Positions 420-60,187 of a stretch of DNA of 64,000 nucleotides are shown here, in pieces; the stretch's first letter is position 1, and each line of letters starts with the position of its first letter. The stretch comes from Granulibacter bethesdensis CGDNIH1. Lineage in GTDB: Bacteria > Pseudomonadota > Alphaproteobacteria > Acetobacterales > Acetobacteraceae. The position numbers and the translations under genes are program-made. The notes under the pieces were generated by a model, which searched no databases, had not been told where the DNA came from, and was given only the letters and a program-made list of their open reading frames with translations. The stretch lies in NCBI RefSeq assembly GCF_000014285.2, contig NC_008343.2, positions 1,452,501 through 1,516,500 on the forward strand. The letters run 5' to 3'.

Positions 420-1754
420 TCAGGCGATCCCGGCAACATCCTCATCTGCATTCAGCTCTTCGATACTGACAAACTTGTCATCGACCTTGGCCGTTTCCAG
501 AACAAAATCAACGACCTTTTCCTCGAAGATCGGGCCGCGCAGGCTGTCGATCGCCTGCGGGTTCTGGCGGAAAAAGTCCAGAACGGCCTGTTCCTGGCCG
601 GGATAACGGCTGGCTTCGGCACGCATAGCGCGGATCAGCTCGTCATTGCCGACCTGAACACCGTTCACGCGACCAATCTCGGCCAGCAGCAGGCCCAGAC
701 GCACACGGCGTTCTGCGATCTTGCGGTAATCGGCCCGCAGCGTGTCCTCATCCTTGCCCTTGTCGTCCTCGTCCAGCCGATCAGCCTTGCGGTCGGCATC
801 GACGCGCTGCCAGATCTGGTTGAATTCGTTTTCCACCAGAGTCGGCGGCACTTCAAAAGCAGCCTGATCCGCCAGAGCATCCAGCAGGGCACGCTTCACG
901 CGCAGACGGCTGACCTGATCATATTCGTTCTGGATCTGCTGGGTGACGATCTCACGCAGCTTTTCCAGACTGTCGAGGCCCAGCTTCGTGGCGAAGGCAT
1001 CATCAATCACCGGAGCAACAGCCTTTTTCAGGGCCTTGGCGGTGATTTCGAACTGGGCGGGCTTACCAGCCAGCTCCGGCACGCCATATTCTTCCGGGAA
1101 GGTCACGTCGATCACGCGGGTTTCACCCACGGACAGGCCTTCCATCTGCTCGGAAAAACCGGGAATAAAGCCGGTTCCTGCGATCTCGACATCCATATCG
1201 GTGCCGGTGCCGCCCTGGAACGCCACACCATCGGTCTTGCCGACGAAATCCACGGTCAGGAAGTCGCCTTTCTGCGCCGGACGCACTTCCTCGACCGGCT
1301 CCAGATTACGCTGGCGCTGAGCGATCTCCTCCAGAGCCTTGTCGACCGCTTCAGCGCTGGGTTCAGCCTTGAGGCGGGTCAGGGACACGGAACCCAGATC
1401 AGGCAACGTAATATCAGGCAGCAATTCCAGCTCGACCTTGAATTCGACATCCTGATCGAGATCGACGCGCACCAGCTCCACCTTCGGCTGAAGGGCGGGG
1501 CGCAGGCCGCGCTCGCTGACCATGGTCTGGGTCGCTTCATTGACGGTTTCTTCCAGCACTTCCGTCTCGACAGAACGGCCATAGCGCTGACGGACCAGCG
1601 TCATCGGAACCTTGCCAGGGCGGAAGCCGGGAAGCTTCAGAGTCTTGGCCAGCTCGGCCAGACGGCGCGTCCGGCGCTCCTCGATATCAGTGGCCGGCAC
1701 CTGAACGGTGAATCCGCGCTTCAAGCCCTCGGAAAGGGTTTCGGTAACCTGCAT
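420..1754 (-). CDS. tig: trigger factor, ribosome-associated chaperone and peptidyl-prolyl isomerase
   Basis: The 444-residue product has the three trigger-factor parts in order. The N-terminal ribosome-binding domain comes first (about residues 1-150) and includes the signature GFRPGKVPMTLVRQRYG near residues 44-60. The FKBP-type PPIase domain follows (about 160-245, with GDFLTVDFVGKTDG and FPEEYGVPELAGK). The long helical C-terminal arm then forms the substrate cradle. The length is typical of the family. The protein binds nascent chains at the ribosome exit tunnel. An AGGA sits about 10 bases before the ATG. clpP follows downstream and tRNA-Leu lies upstream on the same strand. Confidence 0.97.
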   Translation of the reverse strand: MQVTETLSEGLKRGFTVQVPATDIEERRTRRLAELAKTLKLPGFRPGKVPMTLVRQRYGRSVETEVLEETVNEATQTMVSERGLRPALQPKVELVRVDLDQDVEFKVELELLPDITLPDLGSVSLTRLKAEPSAEAVDKALEEIAQRQRNLEPVEEVRPAQKGDFLTVDFVGKTDGVAFQGGTGTDMDVEIAGTGFIPGFSEQMEGLSVGETRVIDVTFPEEYGVPELAGKPAQFEITAKALKKAVAPVIDDAFATKLGLDSLEKLREIVTQQIQNEYDQVSRLRVKRALLDALADQAAFEVPPTLVENEFNQIWQRVDADRKADRLDEDDKGKDEDTLRADYRKIAERRVRLGLLLAEIGRVNGVQVGNDELIRAMRAEASRYPGQEQAVLDFFRQNPQAIDSLRGPIFEEKVVDFVLETAKVDDKFVSIEELNADEDVAGIA

Positions 1755-1822
1755 CGACCGGGAGTCCTACCCTAAAAAATTGACGCCAGCCCGGTATGCA
1801 CCGTTACGTAGCGGTGATCGGC

Positions 1823-1907
<85 letters not shown>

Positions 1908-1969
1908 GCCGTACCCGTACACCGGGTGGCCCGTACACAAAGCAGCATGCGGGCCAAGAAGCGGCGGCT

Positions 1970-3544
1970 TTAGCGCAGGCCGTGCAAACCCGCAATGCCA
2001 TGAGTGGCCGAAAGCGTGCTGAAAGGGTTTTCACCCTTTGATTTTCGTCGAAAACGACGCAACGGATGCTCTATTCCGTTTCTGGCATCGGCTTCAGCGG
2101 TAGCCAGGCACGGGATCAGATCCTCCGCACACATGCCCGGGCCTGCCAGAGCGGCAGCCCGGCCATGCAGAAAAACGGCGGCACAGGCAGCCTCCCATCG
2201 CTCCATGCCCTGCGCCAGCAGAGCCGCCACGATACCGGACAACACATCCCCGGCGCCCGCCGTACCCAGCCAGGGCGGGGCAGACGCATTAATGGCGGTC
2301 CTCCCATCCGGGGCCGCAATGACTGTATCCGAGCCTTTCAGGATGATCACCGCATTGGTCTGCACAGCCGCCTCACGCGCTGCCTTCAGCTTATCGCCGC
2401 CGATCGCACCGAAGACGCGGGTGAACTCGCCTTCATGCGGGGTCAGCACTGCCGTGCCCTTCAGATGCAACGGATGATTGGCCGCCCAGGAAAACACTCC
2501 GGCATCTGCTACGACCTGGCGGCCTGCATCCACCAGCTGGCGCAAGGCTGCTCCGGCAGCTTCCGGCTCCAGCCCCGGCCCGCAGACCCAGACATGACGG
2601 CGGCGATCCTGAAGCAGAGTGGCAATTGCTTCATCCGTCACGATCAGGCCCGGCTCACCGAAGCGGTAGCCCCATGCGGCTTCACGTCCCGTAGCGATGG
2701 AAACCAGGCCGGCTCCCGCCCTGCGCGCGGCGGCACTCGCAAGACGGGCCGCACCCGGCATGGTCGTCCCACCCAGAACGGTGACATGCCCACGTGAATA
2801 TTTGTGCGATTCCGCTGTCACAACCGGCAGGTGCCATAAAGCGGGACTATTCAGCCAGGCATCGGCAGAAATGCCGTTCAACACAGCCGCTGGCATACCG
2901 ATATCGGCCAGAATGACCTCTCCGCACAGCAACTTCCCCGGCATCAGATAATGCCCCGGTTTGCAGCGGACGAAGGTTATGGTCGCCTGAGCCTGAGTGA
3001 CTTTGCCCATCGATTGGCCGGTTGCCCCATCCAGACCACTGGGCACATCAACGGCAATGACCCGCCCGTCTGCCTTCGCCGCTGCATTACCCAGCATCTC
3101 CGACACGAACGAATCGAGCGGTTTCGACAATCCGGCGCCGAACACGGCATCAATGACGAGATCATATTTCCGGATTGCTTCTATGCCCGTCGTGATAACC
3201 GGACCATTCCACCGCGAAGCCGCCCGAGCCGCATCACTGCCGGGTCGTGGAGGCAAAAGAGCCGCGACCGTAACCGGCCACCCAGCCTGTTGAAGCTTTC
3301 GGGCGGCAACATATCCATCGCCGCCATTATTGCCCGGCCCGGCCATGACCAGTACGCGGCAAGGAGAGGACAATCTTCTCACCAGCCGTGCCACCGCGGC
3401 ACCGGCATGCTCCATCAGCCCGGAACCCGGCACATCCATCCGCGTCGCATCCAGAAGGGCCGCCTGCCGATCAGCCAGCGCCATCGAATGAGGCGTCAGC
3501 AGCGCATGGTCAGGCAGGGCAGAGAAACCGTTGACATCTTTCAC
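1970..3544 (-). CDS. nnr: bifunctional NAD(P)H-hydrate epimerase / ADP-dependent NAD(P)HX dehydratase
   Basis: This 524-residue protein repairs hydrated NADH and NADPH. The N-terminal YjeF_N epimerase domain (about residues 20-220) contains the nucleotide loop MAGPGNNGGDGYVAAR and the substrate segment AVDVPSGLDGATG. The C-terminal ribokinase-like dehydratase domain (about 235-490) has HKYSRGHVTVLGG, VCGPGLE, LTPHEGEFTR and GTAGAGDVLSGIVAALLAQG, the last being the ATP/ADP-binding and catalytic loop. Both halves look intact, as in E. coli YjeF. The start at 3544 is the first in-frame ATG and gives about 20 extra residues before the domain, so a slightly later start is possible. Confidence 0.95.
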   Translation of the reverse strand: MKDVNGFSALPDHALLTPHSMALADRQAALLDATRMDVPGSGLMEHAGAAVARLVRRLSSPCRVLVMAGPGNNGGDGYVAARKLQQAGWPVTVAALLPPRPGSDAARAASRWNGPVITTGIEAIRKYDLVIDAVFGAGLSKPLDSFVSEMLGNAAAKADGRVIAVDVPSGLDGATGQSMGKVTQAQATITFVRCKPGHYLMPGKLLCGEVILADIGMPAAVLNGISADAWLNSPALWHLPVVTAESHKYSRGHVTVLGGTTMPGAARLASAAARRAGAGLVSIATGREAAWGYRFGEPGLIVTDEAIATLLQDRRRHVWVCGPGLEPEAAGAALRQLVDAGRQVVADAGVFSWAANHPLHLKGTAVLTPHEGEFTRVFGAIGGDKLKAAREAAVQTNAVIILKGSDTVIAAPDGRTAINASAPPWLGTAGAGDVLSGIVAALLAQGMERWEAACAAVFLHGRAAALAGPGMCAEDLIPCLATAEADARNGIEHPLRRFRRKSKGENPFSTLSATHGIAGLHGLR

Positions 3545-3744
3545 ATCTCGATTTCCTGAACAACAGTACCTTTACAGACACCGGCTACAGATACCGACAG
3601 GGCAGAATTCTGCTGCCATCATCCTGTCAAAAAGACCGGCTATTTTTTCTGAAGAAATCATCGCCGGGAAGAGTGCAATCGGCTACGTCTCGGCTCCATG
3701 GTTTTTGATCCGCTGTGCCGGCTTACATCAAACGGGGTTGCGAC

Positions 3745-4194
3745 ATGTTGAGTTCTGTTCTGCTGGCCGTCCATCTTCTGGGGACCGTGCTGTGGGTGGG
3801 CGGCATGATTTTCGCCCTGTTCGTGCTGCGGCCCAACCTCATTCTCATTCAGCCTGCCGAACGGGTCGCCTTTCATATGGCCGTGCTGGGACGGTTTTTC
3901 GCCATTCTGCGACTGGTCATTCCGGCCATTCTGCTCAGCGGGTTCATCATGAGCTTCAGCCTTTACGGCTCTTTCGCCCGTGCCCCCTGGCAGGTGCATG
4001 TCATGACACTGACCGGCCTGATCATGGCTTGTGTCTACGGTGCCATCCTGAGCGGACCATGGCGGAGCCTTCAGAATGGCGCCATCCCTCCTGTCAGCGC
4101 TTTTGACCGGATCAGGCAACTGGTGCATGTGAATTTCGGCCTGGGTTTCATCACGATCATCATTGCATGCACAATCCGGACCTATATTGGTTGA
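3745..4194 (+). CDS. CopD/HemJ-like four-helix membrane protein
   Basis: The 149-residue protein has four predicted membrane helices. The first contains LLAVHLLGTVLWVGGMIFAL, with a His and the VGG motif typical of the copper resistance protein D (CopD) fold. A second conserved His is in RQLVHVNFGLGF in the last helix. Such proteins sit in the inner membrane and are linked to copper or haem handling, but the exact substrate cannot be read from sequence. The ATG at 3745 is preferred over 3715 because GGGG precedes it and the hydrophobic helix then starts at once. It is not obviously in an operon with the efflux genes that follow 190 bases later. Confidence 0.65.
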   Translation: MLSSVLLAVHLLGTVLWVGGMIFALFVLRPNLILIQPAERVAFHMAVLGRFFAILRLVIPAILLSGFIMSFSLYGSFARAPWQVHVMTLTGLIMACVYGAILSGPWRSLQNGAIPPVSAFDRIRQLVHVNFGLGFITIIIACTIRTYIG

Positions 4195-4383
4195 AAGGGA
4201 TCATGGCGGGATAGACATATTCCCGTTACAATTTCTCTGTTCCCTTACACCCCGTCTCTATTGGCCACTCTCTGGAAACGCGTGCCAAGTATTACGCCTT
4301 CGCCCTCAGCCGAACGGTATTACCCTGTGCTTCGGCATCAGGGATTCCTGTTCCTTGTCCATCAGCCGGAAGCACGATCACGT

Positions 4384-5844
4384 ATGGCGGTAAGAACATG
4401 GGCACTGGGCCCGTTTCTGGCGGCTATTTTGGGGGCCTGTTCGCTCGGGCCCAGCTGGAAATCTCCGGATTTGGATATCCCCGCCGCTTTCCGTGCCACT
4501 CCTGCCAGTGCACAAGCGGCCTGGCCGTCTGCCGAGTGGTGGCGTGACTTCAATCAGCCGGAACTGACGGAGCTGATGGAAGAAGCCAAAGCCCGCAATT
4601 TCGACATCGCCGCCGCCATTGCCCGTGTCCGTCAAGCCGATGCACAGGCACGCGTCTCCGGCGCGCCATTGTTACCCGCCTCATCCCTGTCGGGAGGCCA
4701 TTCATGGAATCAGACAGCACGGACCAAAAACGGGGCATCCGGTGTCTCCGTCGGGGCGGGCAACACCATTCTGACACCTGGCAATCATACCAATGAAGTC
4801 CGGCAATATAACATTTCTGATACAATCAGCTATGAGCTGGATTTCTGGGGCAAAAATCGTGCGACTTTCGAGGCCGCAAAGGAAAGTGCCCAGTATAGCC
4901 GTTTCGATCAGGCCACCGTAGCACTGACGACGACAGCCGCTGTCGCCACCACCTATTTCAATATTCTGGGCTTTCAGGCACGCGTCGCCATTGCCGAGGA
5001 CAATCTGCGGCAAAGTGAGGAAACACTGAAGGTCATCCGTGCCCGTTTCGAGGCAGGAACTGCCTCTTTGCTGGATGTCTCACAGCAGGAAGCGCTGATG
5101 GAGGGATTACGCGCCAACGTCCCGGCACTCCGTTCCCAGCTGGAACAGCAGGTGATCAGCCTCGGTCTCCTGGTCGGTCGGCCGCCGGAAATGGTCTCCG
5201 TCAAAGGAGGATCCCTGGAACAGGCGACCATCCCACAACCAGCCCCCGGTCTGCCCGTTGATCTGGTGGCACGGCGGCCGGATATTGCCGCCGCCGAAGC
5301 TCAGCTTGCCTCCGCCAACGCCAATATCAAGGTTGCACGGGCGAAGTTCTTTCCCTCCTTTACCCTGACGGCAAGCGGGGGATTTCAGGCTTTGACGATG
5401 GCTTACCTGTTTACGCCTCAGGGGCAGATTGCCAGCCTCAGCAGCAGCGTGGCCCAGACGGTTTTCGATAACGGCGTTCTGTTCGGTAATCTCGATATTG
5501 CCAAAGGCCGCTATGAGGAGTTGCTCGCGACCTATCGCAAGGCCGTGGTGCAGGCTTTCACCGATGTGGAAAATGCCATCACCTCCTATCGGTACGCTAC
5601 TGAACAGGAAGCAATGCAGCGCAAGGCTGTGGAGGTCTCACGACGCGCGGCCGATGTCGCGCGCGCCCAGCTTCTGGCCGGGGTGATTGATGTTACTGCC
5701 CTGTTGCAGGCACAACAGACCTTGTTCAGTAATCAGGCCACTCTGGCTCAGGTCAGGTTGTCGCGATTTGAAGCGGTCATCAATCTCTACAAGGCCCTTG
5801 GCGGTGGCTGGACCCGCTTGCCCGCTCCCGGACACAAGATATGA
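4384..5844 (+). CDS. outer-membrane efflux lipoprotein of the RND NodT/OprM family
   Basis: The 486-residue product begins with a short signal peptide ending in a lipobox (LAAILGAC, Cys at about residue 19), so it should be acylated and anchored in the outer membrane. Two repeated outer-membrane-efflux-protein halves follow. They include WWRDFNQPELTELMEEA, the coiled region ISYELDFWGKNRATFEAAKE, the second-half LPVDLVARRPDIAAAEAQLA, and a C-terminal helix ending near ALGGGWT. These are hallmarks of the TolC-like trimer channels that pair with RND pumps. An upstream in-frame ATG at 4261 would bury the signal peptide, so 4384 is chosen. It overlaps the adaptor gene by 4 bases. Confidence 0.92.
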   Translation: MAVRTWALGPFLAAILGACSLGPSWKSPDLDIPAAFRATPASAQAAWPSAEWWRDFNQPELTELMEEAKARNFDIAAAIARVRQADAQARVSGAPLLPASSLSGGHSWNQTARTKNGASGVSVGAGNTILTPGNHTNEVRQYNISDTISYELDFWGKNRATFEAAKESAQYSRFDQATVALTTTAAVATTYFNILGFQARVAIAEDNLRQSEETLKVIRARFEAGTASLLDVSQQEALMEGLRANVPALRSQLEQQVISLGLLVGRPPEMVSVKGGSLEQATIPQPAPGLPVDLVARRPDIAAAEAQLASANANIKVARAKFFPSFTLTASGGFQALTMAYLFTPQGQIASLSSSVAQTVFDNGVLFGNLDIAKGRYEELLATYRKAVVQAFTDVENAITSYRYATEQEAMQRKAVEVSRRAADVARAQLLAGVIDVTALLQAQQTLFSNQATLAQVRLSRFEAVINLYKALGGGWTRLPAPGHKI

Positions 5845-37040: not shown

Positions 37041-37343
37041 AGGCTCAAAGAGAACGCAAACCCCTTTCGCATGGTCTTCCTTTCAAACTCTCGTTCTGTC
37101 ATCACATAAGACAAAAGCAATCTTATGATAAAATTAATCTATTATCAGAATTAATAGTAAAATATAACAGCATCTATAGCAATAAAATTATAGCCCTTTT
37201 TGGTCGCAATCCTTACGGAAGGAAACCAGGCAGGATATAAATCTCAATTATTTTAACTTTTTGCCTCTGGACAGGCTACGGAACCCTCGCGCAACCATAT
37301 TGTTACCACCTTGCCTAAAACATGACACAGGAGAGAAATTCTT
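37041..37343. other. AT-rich spacer between ppc and the DUF4142 gene
   Basis: This 303-base divergent region holds no convincing frame. Bases 37100-37200 are very AT-rich. AGGAGAG at about 37329-37335 is the ribosome binding site of the DUF4142 gene. Promoters for both flanking genes must lie here, but none stands out clearly. Confidence 0.4.
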
Positions 37344-57612: not shown

Positions 57613-57840
57613 ATGAAGAGCGGTATCCACCCGGAATACCATGAGATCAACGTGATCATGACCGATGGCACGGAGTTCAAGACCCGTTCCTGCTATGGCC
57701 AGCCCGGCGAAACGCTGCGTCTGGATATTGATCCGAAATCCCACCCGGCCTGGACCGGCGTTCAGCGTATGCTCGATACCGGGGGACAGGTTGCGAAGTT
57801 CAACAAGAAATTTGCCGGTCTCGGCACGCGCCGCAAATAA
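57613..57840 (+). CDS. rpmE: 50S ribosomal protein L31
   Basis: The 75-residue product begins [20 protein letters not shown] and ends [14 protein letters not shown], both typical of L31. Only one cysteine is left (TRSCYG), so this is the zinc-free form common in alphaproteobacteria. A longer frame from 57529 lacks support, and AAGGAG lies just before the ATG at 57613. A strong terminator follows, followed by the Zur-type boxes of the next gene. Confidence 0.96.
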
Positions 57841-57866
57841 GGGCCGCAAGCTTTCGAATGAAGCAG

Positions 57867-57897
57867 AAAGAGGGGCGCATAGCGCCTCTTTTTTTGT
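57867..57897 (+). terminator. rho-independent terminator after rpmE
   Basis: AAAGAGG(GG)CGC pairs with GCGCCTCTTT around an ATA loop, with two extra G bases on the left arm, and is followed by seven T bases. It begins about 27 bases past the L31 stop. Confidence 0.85.
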
Positions 57898-57906
57898 TGC
57901 GACGGA

Positions 57907-57944
57907 GTTATGTTGTAACATAACATGTCATGTTATAACATAAC
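57907..57944 (+). promoter_or_regulatory. two tandem Zur-type boxes upstream of the TonB receptor
   Basis: Box 1 is GTTATGTTGTAACATAAC (57907-57924), a perfect inverted repeat of GTTATGTT. Box 2 is GTCATGTTATAACATAAC (57927-57944), with one mismatch. The boxes are 20 bp centre to centre, two helical turns apart. The pattern matches known proteobacterial Zur operators (ATGTTATAACAT core). They lie 45 bases before the receptor start, where a repressor would block transcription. Confidence 0.75.
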
Positions 57945-57988
57945 AAAATATGTGCCTTTTGCGCAGCCGTCGAAGGATTACGCTTCCC

Positions 57989-60187
57989 ATGTCCCGCCTC
58001 GCCTTCTCGCCTCGTCTCACCATCCCGCTCAGTTCCCTTCTTCGGGGAGGCTCTGCCACCTTGCTCGGCAGCACGGTACTGGCAGGGGGATTATGCGGAT
58101 TTGTCCACTTTGCCGAAGCGGCTGATCTGTCCTCGGCCGATGTCTCCCTGCCGCCGCTTTCCGTGGTGTCCAATGCGCTGGATCAGGCACGGAGTCAGAT
58201 TCAACCCTCTCTGGGCGCAACAACCTACCATTTCAGCCGGACCGCACTGGAAACCATCCCGCAGGGAGATAATGCCCCGTTGCAGCAGGTGCTGCTGCAA
58301 GCCCCGGGCGTAGCGCAGGACAGTTTCGGCCAGATTCATATCCGCGGCGATCACGGGAATGTCCAGTATCGCCTCAACGGGGTGCAGTTGCCGGAAGGGC
58401 TGTCCGTGTTCGGGCAGGTGCTGGAAACACGCTTTGCGCACAGCCTGTCCCTGATCATGGGCGCTCTGCCGGCGCAATATGGCTTCCGGGAGGCCGGGGT
58501 CGTGGACATCGTGACCAAAAACGGCACCACCGATCCCGGCGGGCAGATCAGCGTTTATGGCGGTGCCCGCGATTATTTCCAGCCCAGCTTCGCTTATGGC
58601 GGTCGTAAAGGGGCCGTCGATTACTTCCTGACTGGTGACTACCTGCTGAACCGGGTGGGGATTGAAAACCCGACCAGTTCCTTCAATGCCATTCATGACC
58701 AGTCCAATCAGTGGCACGGCATGGCGCAGATTTCAGGTATCATCAACGATACCACCCGGATCAGCACGATCGTTGGATCATCCACGCAGCATTTCCAGAT
58801 CCCGAACCGGCCCGGCCTGTTGCCCTCCAACGGATACAGCGTCAACGGAATTGATACCAAGGATAGCGCAACGCTCAATCAGCGTCAGCGCGAAATTACC
58901 AATTTCGCCATTCTGTCGCTGCAAAAACACTATGATACGGTAGACGTGCAAAGCTCCGTCTTCAGCCGTTACAGCAGCCTGTATTATGCGCCTGACCAGA
59001 TTGGTGAATTGCTGTTCAACGGTTTTTCACAGTCGGCGGCGCGCGGTGTCACCTCCACTGGTGCGCAGACCGATGCAAGCTGGAAAGTTTCGGACCATCA
59101 TACAGTGCGCGGCGGCTTTCTGGCGACGATCGAGCGCGCAACCTTCCAGACCAACAGCCAGGTTTTTGCTACGGATGACAGCGGGCAGGTTGCATCCGGT
59201 GCCTCTCCCTACTCCATCTATCAGGGTGGCGGCAGAACTGGGGGCCTGTATGGTATCTATCTACAGGACGAGTGGAAAATTCTGCCACGCGTGACCATCA
59301 ATTATGGCGCCCGTTTCGATGTGGTCGATGAATATACGCACGAAAATCAACTCAGTCCCCGCGTCAACATTGTCTGGATGCCGACGGACCGGACCTCGGT
59401 ACATGCCGGCTACGCCCGCTATTTTACCCCACCGACTTTCGAGTTGCTCAGCACGGCCTCCATTGCCGCATTCCAGAACACCACAGCGGCGGCCCCTGGC
59501 GGCCTGCTCAACAATACGGTCAAGGCCGAGCGTGCCAATTACTTCGATATCGGCATCGACCAACAATTCCTGCCCGGTTGGCGCGGTGGTGTTGACGGTT
59601 ATTACAAGCAGGCCACCAACCTGCTGGATGAGGGCCAGTTCGGAGCACCGATCATCCTGACCTCGTTCAACTATGCGCGTGGCTATGTCGGCGGTGTCCA
59701 GTTCGATACCACCTTCGACCGTGGGCCATGGTCGGTCTACGCCAATGTTGCCTGGTCAAAGGCCATGGGCAAGGACATCGTCTCGGCCCAGTTCAATTTC
59801 GATCCGGAGGAGCTGGAACAAATTAAAAACAGCTATATCCATCTGGATCACGATCAGCGTATCACAGCCTCGGCCGGAGCGGCCTATACGTTCTTCCATG
59901 ACACACATCATCCGCTGCGCATGTCCGGCACGATGCTGTTCGGCAGCGGTTTGCGTTCCGATGGCACAGTACCGAACGGAAGCGCCCTGCCTGCTTACGG
60001 AACATTCAATTTTTCAGCCGTCCAGACGCTCGATCTTGGTTTCGGCAAGAGCACCCAGATAAGGCTTGATGTCATCAACCTGTTCGACAGCACCTACATG
60101 CTGCGTGACGGCACCGGGGTCGGGGTTGGCGCACCACAATACGGGCTGCGCCGAACGATCCTGGCAGGGCTGACACAAAGATTCTGA
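57989..60187 (+). CDS. TonB-dependent outer-membrane receptor, probable zinc uptake
   Basis: From the ATG at 57989 the 732-residue protein has a signal peptide ending near HFAEA, then a plug domain (about residues 75-195; LQQVLLQAPGVAQDSFGQIH, IRGDHGNVQYRLNGVQLPEG, REAGVVDIVTKNGT). A 22-strand barrel follows, with NYGARFDVVDEYTHENQLSP, and the terminal strand ends RRTILAGLTQRF with the usual final Phe. It imports a ligand across the outer membrane using TonB energy. The Zur-type boxes in front point to zinc or a zinc complex (ZnuD-like). Family alone does not give the ligand. An upstream ATG at 57950 has no Shine-Dalgarno. Confidence 0.9.
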   Translation: MSRLAFSPRLTIPLSSLLRGGSATLLGSTVLAGGLCGFVHFAEAADLSSADVSLPPLSVVSNALDQARSQIQPSLGATTYHFSRTALETIPQGDNAPLQQVLLQAPGVAQDSFGQIHIRGDHGNVQYRLNGVQLPEGLSVFGQVLETRFAHSLSLIMGALPAQYGFREAGVVDIVTKNGTTDPGGQISVYGGARDYFQPSFAYGGRKGAVDYFLTGDYLLNRVGIENPTSSFNAIHDQSNQWHGMAQISGIINDTTRISTIVGSSTQHFQIPNRPGLLPSNGYSVNGIDTKDSATLNQRQREITNFAILSLQKHYDTVDVQSSVFSRYSSLYYAPDQIGELLFNGFSQSAARGVTSTGAQTDASWKVSDHHTVRGGFLATIERATFQTNSQVFATDDSGQVASGASPYSIYQGGGRTGGLYGIYLQDEWKILPRVTINYGARFDVVDEYTHENQLSPRVNIVWMPTDRTSVHAGYARYFTPPTFELLSTASIAAFQNTTAAAPGGLLNNTVKAERANYFDIGIDQQFLPGWRGGVDGYYKQATNLLDEGQFGAPIILTSFNYARGYVGGVQFDTTFDRGPWSVYANVAWSKAMGKDIVSAQFNFDPEELEQIKNSYIHLDHDQRITASAGAAYTFFHDTHHPLRMSGTMLFGSGLRSDGTVPNGSALPAYGTFNFSAVQTLDLGFGKSTQIRLDVINLFDSTYMLRDGTGVGVGAPQYGLRRTILAGLTQRF

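Follow-up and report, generated by a model that had tools for sequence, protein, structure and literature searches.

Two 18-bp inverted repeats ahead of a TonB-dependent receptor gene in Granulibacter bethesdensis appear to be operators through which Zur represses the receptor with zinc. On this reading, to which we assign a probability of roughly 0.87, the receptor is made at low zinc together with znuC-B-A, ZigA and a DUF1826 protein, and most likely carries zinc. What can be read directly in the DNA is that the boxes and a zur gene are present, that the regulon is shared and that the receptor's box is conserved. Control of a TonB-dependent receptor by Zur is a known regulatory principle; what is new here is the lineage of the receptor and, in this genus, the doubling of an operator that probably takes two dimers. 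A well-supported role in zinc starvation is thereby given to a group of receptors that occur in acetic acid bacteria and related genera and for which we found no ligand stated.

The repeats lie in the following arrangement within the window, the whole 64-kb stretch of DNA that was analysed:

57613..57840, + strand: rpmE, ribosomal protein L31, the upstream neighbour of both boxes
57865..57895, + strand: probable intrinsic rpmE terminator; hairpin fold of -18.6 kcal/mol, its 3' arm taking in the T-run
57907..57924, no strand assigned: candidate Zur box A, GTTATGTTGTAACATAAC; agrees with the two-dimer skeleton at 8/8 positions
57927..57944, no strand assigned: candidate Zur box B, GTCATGTTATAACATAAC; agrees with the skeleton at 8/8 positions; 20 bp from box A
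57972..57977, + strand: probable ribosome-binding site GAAGGA, read from the sequence
57989..60187, + strand: TonB-dependent receptor, 732 aa; likely start ATG 57989, longest open frame from 57950

An earlier note on this DNA had placed two 18-bp inverted repeats, 20 bp apart, between the rpmE terminator and the receptor gene, and this layout was borne out with one correction: boxes A and B are 20 bp apart from start to start and begin 11 bp past the terminator, and each is an imperfect inverted repeat in which 8 of 9 pairs match. Because GAAGGA stands ahead of it, ATG 57989 is the likelier receptor start, which sets the gap between boxes and gene at 44 bp. The terminator hairpin comes from the fold alone, as a consensus terminator scan of the + strand returned nothing at 57865-57895, and it probably parts rpmE from the receptor promoter. 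Since rpmE is upstream of the boxes, we do not expect it to be controlled by them. Scanning for consensus promoters gave none of the sigma-70 type beneath the boxes, and we counted this against the Zur-operator explanation.

L31 proteins occur in forms with and without a zinc ribbon, which are told apart by their cysteines. The L31 encoded at 57613, whose gene adjoins the probably Zur-controlled receptor gene but lies upstream of the boxes, has a single cysteine and therefore looks like the form without the ribbon.

With up to 3 mismatches to RTTATGTTATAACATAAY allowed, the 64-kb window contains boxes A and B and no other site, whereas its 100 dinucleotide-preserving shuffles gave 0 such sites; allowing 4 mismatches adds one place, at 37093. 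We also searched the whole genome, a single contig of 2,708,434 bases, with a limit of 3 mismatches to GTTATGTTATAACATAAC and the reversed pattern as a control. The control pattern matched 0 times and the motif five times:

Sites 1 and 2, window 57907-57924 and 57927-57944: before the TonB-dependent receptor
Site 3, genome 902163: 40 bp ahead of the DUF1826 gene
Site 4, genome 1344191: ahead of znuC-znuB-znuA, about 1 kb from zur
Site 5, genome 1741217: 34 bp ahead of the gene for a COG0523 protein, ZigA

The repeat had been put forward as something to seek at other zinc genes, and it does recur there, at znuC-B-A, ZigA and DUF1826; at up to 3 mismatches, no further place in the genome has it. 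This recurrence, together with the encoded Zur, supports the zinc role that had been proposed for the receptor. The COG0523 protein passes the NCBIfam cut-off for ZigA, a zinc chaperone (623.6 bits against 600), and the ABC importer encoded by znuC-B-A has the AztABC models as its nearest NCBIfam matches, at scores below their cut-offs. The DUF1826 and ZigA boxes are identical and perfect, and their genes stand apart in this genome; in Pseudomonas aeruginosa, the DUF1826 gene and zigA are described as neighbours and marked as members of the Zur regulon (PMC9431628). Of eight receptor barrels in the genome, the window receptor alone has boxes within 3 mismatches.

The genome encodes two Fur-family proteins, one Fur and one Zur, which answers the question of whether a Zur is present at all. 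The zur gene (1345311) is upstream of the znu box (1344191), with one alpha/beta-hydrolase gene in between; the listed start of that gene (4760-5737 of genome segment 1339500-1349500) overlaps the end of zur. The Zur protein falls in the Fur family (PF01475, 58.4 bits), and among solved structures E. coli Zur is its closest relative (4mtd, E 4.9e-29). Its top NCBIfam match is the Zur model NF008646, at 128.3 bits under a cut-off of 167, which serves annotation and does not define a Zur biologically; all other models score below 44 bits. We counted the shortfall to this cut-off against the Zur-operator explanation. Aligned to E. coli Zur, the protein retains Y45, D49, R52 and R65 as Y54, D58, R61 and R74, the four cysteines of zinc site A (C111, C114, C151, C154) and the site B ligands (H86, C97, H104, E119). 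By analogy with E. coli, Caulobacter and Paracoccus, we infer that this Zur acts as a repressor. Counting mismatches across segment 1339500-1349500, we found no box within 6 mismatches at zur itself, so autoregulation through the same type of box is unsupported.

The match to the Zur operator pattern that the earlier note had recognized holds in detail. In E. coli, RNNNYxxxRNNNY is described as the site of one Zur dimer and the 18-bp skeleton RNNNYRNNRYNNYRNNNY as that of two overlapping dimers, tied by D49-R52 salt bridges (PMC4219657). Both receptor boxes agree with this purine/pyrimidine skeleton at all 8 positions, as is described for the E. coli operators (znuABC and others; PMC4219657), and so does the box shared by DUF1826 and ZigA; the znu box agrees at 7 of 8. 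In each receptor box, two GTTA-N5-TAAC 13-mers overlap at a 5-bp offset; one of them is perfect and the other has 1 mismatch. Given the overlapping 13-mers and the fit to RNNNYRNNRYNNYRNNNY, a two-dimer site is the best reading of the 18-bp box, and each receptor box is probably bound by Zur in this way. The salt-bridge pair D49/R52 that links the dimers in E. coli Zur (PMC4219657) is likewise kept in the Zur of this genome. The tandem is in turn best read as having room for up to four dimers. Unlike the E. coli operators, the boxes here form a tandem at a distance of 20 bp, with a TonB-dependent receptor as their target. It had been suggested that two-turn spacing favours cooperative binding of one dimer per repeat; cooperativity survives, probably built into each box since each 18-mer holds two overlapping elements, and the single dimer per repeat is the less likely reading, as each 18-mer fits the two-dimer skeleton.

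Because the receptor boxes match the sites ahead of zinc-uptake genes, expression of the receptor very probably turns on at zinc shortage. When zinc is ample, we infer, zinc-loaded Zur would occupy the receptor promoter at both 18-bp boxes, each probably bound by two cooperating dimers, and block transcription. When zinc is low, Zur would be released and the receptor expressed alongside the chaperone ZigA, the importer encoded by znuC-B-A and the DUF1826 protein. The receptor would then most likely move zinc, either unbound or with a carrier, over the outer membrane to ZnuA, using TonB energy.

The receptor itself fits the type of a beta-barrel with plug: it carries the barrel domain PF00593 (105.9 bits), and a structure model built from 28 sequences reached a mean pLDDT of 78.6 and a pTM of 0.81. 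The top fold matches listed for this model are all TonB-dependent transporters, but their ligands are diverse, and BtuB, PqqU, FhuA and Cir score practically level. We therefore rejected assignment of a ligand by fold, since these and others score alike, and counted the generic nature of the fold matches against the Zur-operator explanation. Five residues that do not vary across 28 sequences, H117, H122, E136, D620 and H621 (counted from the start at 57989), are tentative candidates for zinc ligands. Sequence comparison with solved structures gave weak matches, the colicin I receptor from the single sequence and, with a family profile, enterobactin, siderophore and PQQ receptors. These sequence matches to solved structures include no characterised zinc transporter, which we counted against the Zur-operator explanation. 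We draw the zinc cargo from regulation, gene neighbourhood and conservation, and not from homology to a proven zinc receptor.

An alternative that keeps the boxes as Zur operators is that the cargo is something other than free zinc, either a zinc carrier, which partly overlaps with our own reading, or something else that is needed at zinc shortage. Other Zur-controlled receptors are described as importing zinc carriers (review, PMC6103462), the nearest solved folds include cobalamin, PQQ and siderophore receptors, and the family profile weakly matches siderophore and PQQ receptors. Nothing speaks directly against this alternative; the common fold and the weak matches name no ligand, and we consider it rather unlikely.

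If the boxes are Zur operators, their association with the receptor might be expected in related bacteria. The receptor is present in 64 of 150 family genomes at E <= 1e-60, and in the 30 best of these loci, our own genome among them, a box with at most 4 mismatches precedes the receptor in 24 (shuffles, 0.05). We also took the best 80 of 537 relatives in a genome collection, among them Acetobacter, Gluconobacter, Komagataeibacter, Gluconacetobacter, Asaia, Bombella, Nitrospirillum, Reyranella, Phenylobacterium, Methylocapsa and others; a box with at most 4 mismatches is upstream of the receptor in 62 of the 80, and the downstream control gave 0/80 and single-base shuffles 0.04 boxes per 80 loci. 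In the Gluconobacter oxydans ortholog (L107), the box has at most 2 mismatches. The named relatives also place the window's genome in Acetobacteraceae. The 80 and 30 loci are not independent cases, as many of the 80 come from close species and some genomes are common to both sets (for example, L015 and L073, each on a contig of 7,098 bases). A site with at most 2 mismatches occurs in 49/150 family genomes, against 2/150 for the reversed control. Counted against the Zur-operator explanation were the loci and genomes in which these limits found nothing: 6 of the 30 loci and 18 of the 80 (one with just 25 bp of upstream DNA) at 4 mismatches, and 101 of the 150 genomes at 2.

Among 30 motif loci cut from the 150 family genomes, one of them our own, 25 encode a receptor relative, Zur, a Znu protein, ZigA or DUF1826 within about 1.5 kb (tblastn, E <= 1e-6). 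A Zur-like gene is within 3 kb of the receptor in 7 of the 80 relatives and a ZnuA-like gene in one more (8/80 together). The tandem is found in fewer places. A second box (at most 5 mismatches, 16-60 bp off) occurs in 3 of the 80 relatives, and the two genomes searched from the genus both have the 20-bp tandem, one box of the second genome having 2 mismatches. Thus the link between receptor and box is conserved and the tandem is not.

These data also bear on whether the repeats might be operators of Fur or another metal regulator, with the receptor serving an iron carrier. The genome does encode a Fur, iron control is common among TonB-dependent receptors, and iron-carrier receptors are among the weak sequence matches. 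However, the same box stands at the znu genes and at those for ZigA and DUF1826, none of the other seven receptor genes has one within 3 mismatches, and the Zur-like genes found beside the relatives' receptors, in the 8/80 set that includes the ZnuA-like neighbour, match this genome's Zur and not its Fur (E <= 1e-6). We rejected a Fur box because the box is shared with zinc genes and the relatives have Zur-like neighbours, and regard this explanation as very improbable. A last alternative, suggested by the position directly after a terminator hairpin, is that no regulator is involved and the repeats merely form an AT-rich hairpin or arose as palindromes by chance. This is hardly credible, since the shuffles and the reversed genome control gave no site and orthologous genes have conserved the box.

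With the boxes read as Zur operators, we compared the receptor with known Zur-controlled systems. As here, the alphaproteobacterium Caulobacter crescentus is described as having a Zur and GTTA-N5-TAAC boxes ahead of TonB-dependent receptors, ZnuK, ZnuL and ZnuM, of which ZnuK and ZnuL are reported to be required under zinc starvation (PMC4176598). We located ZnuK-, ZnuL- and ZnuM-like receptors in a Caulobacter-like genome by the three published boxes and compared them directly with the window receptor. Orthology was rejected for ZnuK (28% over 69 residues, E 0.009), ZnuL (E 1.2) and ZnuM (E 10), and on these values the window receptor, unlike the three, belongs to another lineage. A search of that genome and a second one, run without a positive control, gave no match at E <= 1e-5. 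A ZnuL identity had been hinted at by a Phenylobacterium relative (L135), whose box holds the core of the published ZnuL box, and the direct comparison did not bear it out.

ZnuD of Neisseria and others is also a TonB-dependent outer-membrane receptor, with zinc described as its ligand (PMC4557270, PMC2895646), and Zur-controlled receptors in Neisseria have been listed (PMC6103462). The window receptor's sequence matches to solved structures contain no ZnuD entry, whether by phmmer (E <= 1) or by profile (E <= 0.001), and ZnuD structures are absent from the fold matches listed. In Paracoccus denitrificans, Zur boxes are likewise described ahead of zur/znuA, azt and COG0523 genes, with two in the zur/znuA promoter region; unlike in the window's genome, neither any of the five boxes reported there nor the weak norC box is ahead of a TonB-dependent receptor (PMC5387054).

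We therefore tentatively propose, at somewhat below even odds, a separate lineage of outer-membrane zinc receptors in Acetobacteraceae and other Alphaproteobacteria that is distinct from ZnuK, ZnuL and ZnuM and apparently from ZnuD, and that in this genus is placed under a tandem of two two-dimer boxes with room for up to four dimers. If so, the receptor promoter would be the most tightly zinc-switched of the regulon. In the searchable literature on Zur and zinc in Alphaproteobacteria, Acetobacteraceae and Granulibacter, a scope that leaves most subscription journals and RegPrecise outside, titles and the opening lines of abstracts among the papers listed gave no account of the regulon or of the receptor lineage.

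Granulibacter infects people with chronic granulomatous disease. The five sites define a compact candidate Zur regulon for a probable human opportunist, in which withholding of zinc by the host may matter.

The neighbourhoods of the other boxes contain further features. At 1450-4932 of genome segment 898000-906500, the DUF1826 gene and a metE gene diverge, with the DUF1826 box (4164-4181) between them; metE is headed by a cobalamin riboswitch on the minus strand (3868-4081 of the same segment, 125.7 bits). Because a Zur box and a cobalamin riboswitch share this one intergenic region, it may respond to vitamin B12 as well as to zinc; a zinc-requiring metE is reported to go up when zur is mutated in Caulobacter (PMC4176598). 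In four of the relatives' loci (L043, L048, L049 and L052), a single Zur box is flanked by ZigA and DUF1826 genes. Divergent from the ZigA box, and starting about 210 bp from it, is a gene for a calpain-like cysteine protease (681 aa, PF00648; L010, 4447-6492) with its peptidase domain at 56-249, which matches the calpain-like protein published for Granulibacter bethesdensis, described as having 681 residues and a domain at 49-247 (PMC4631099).
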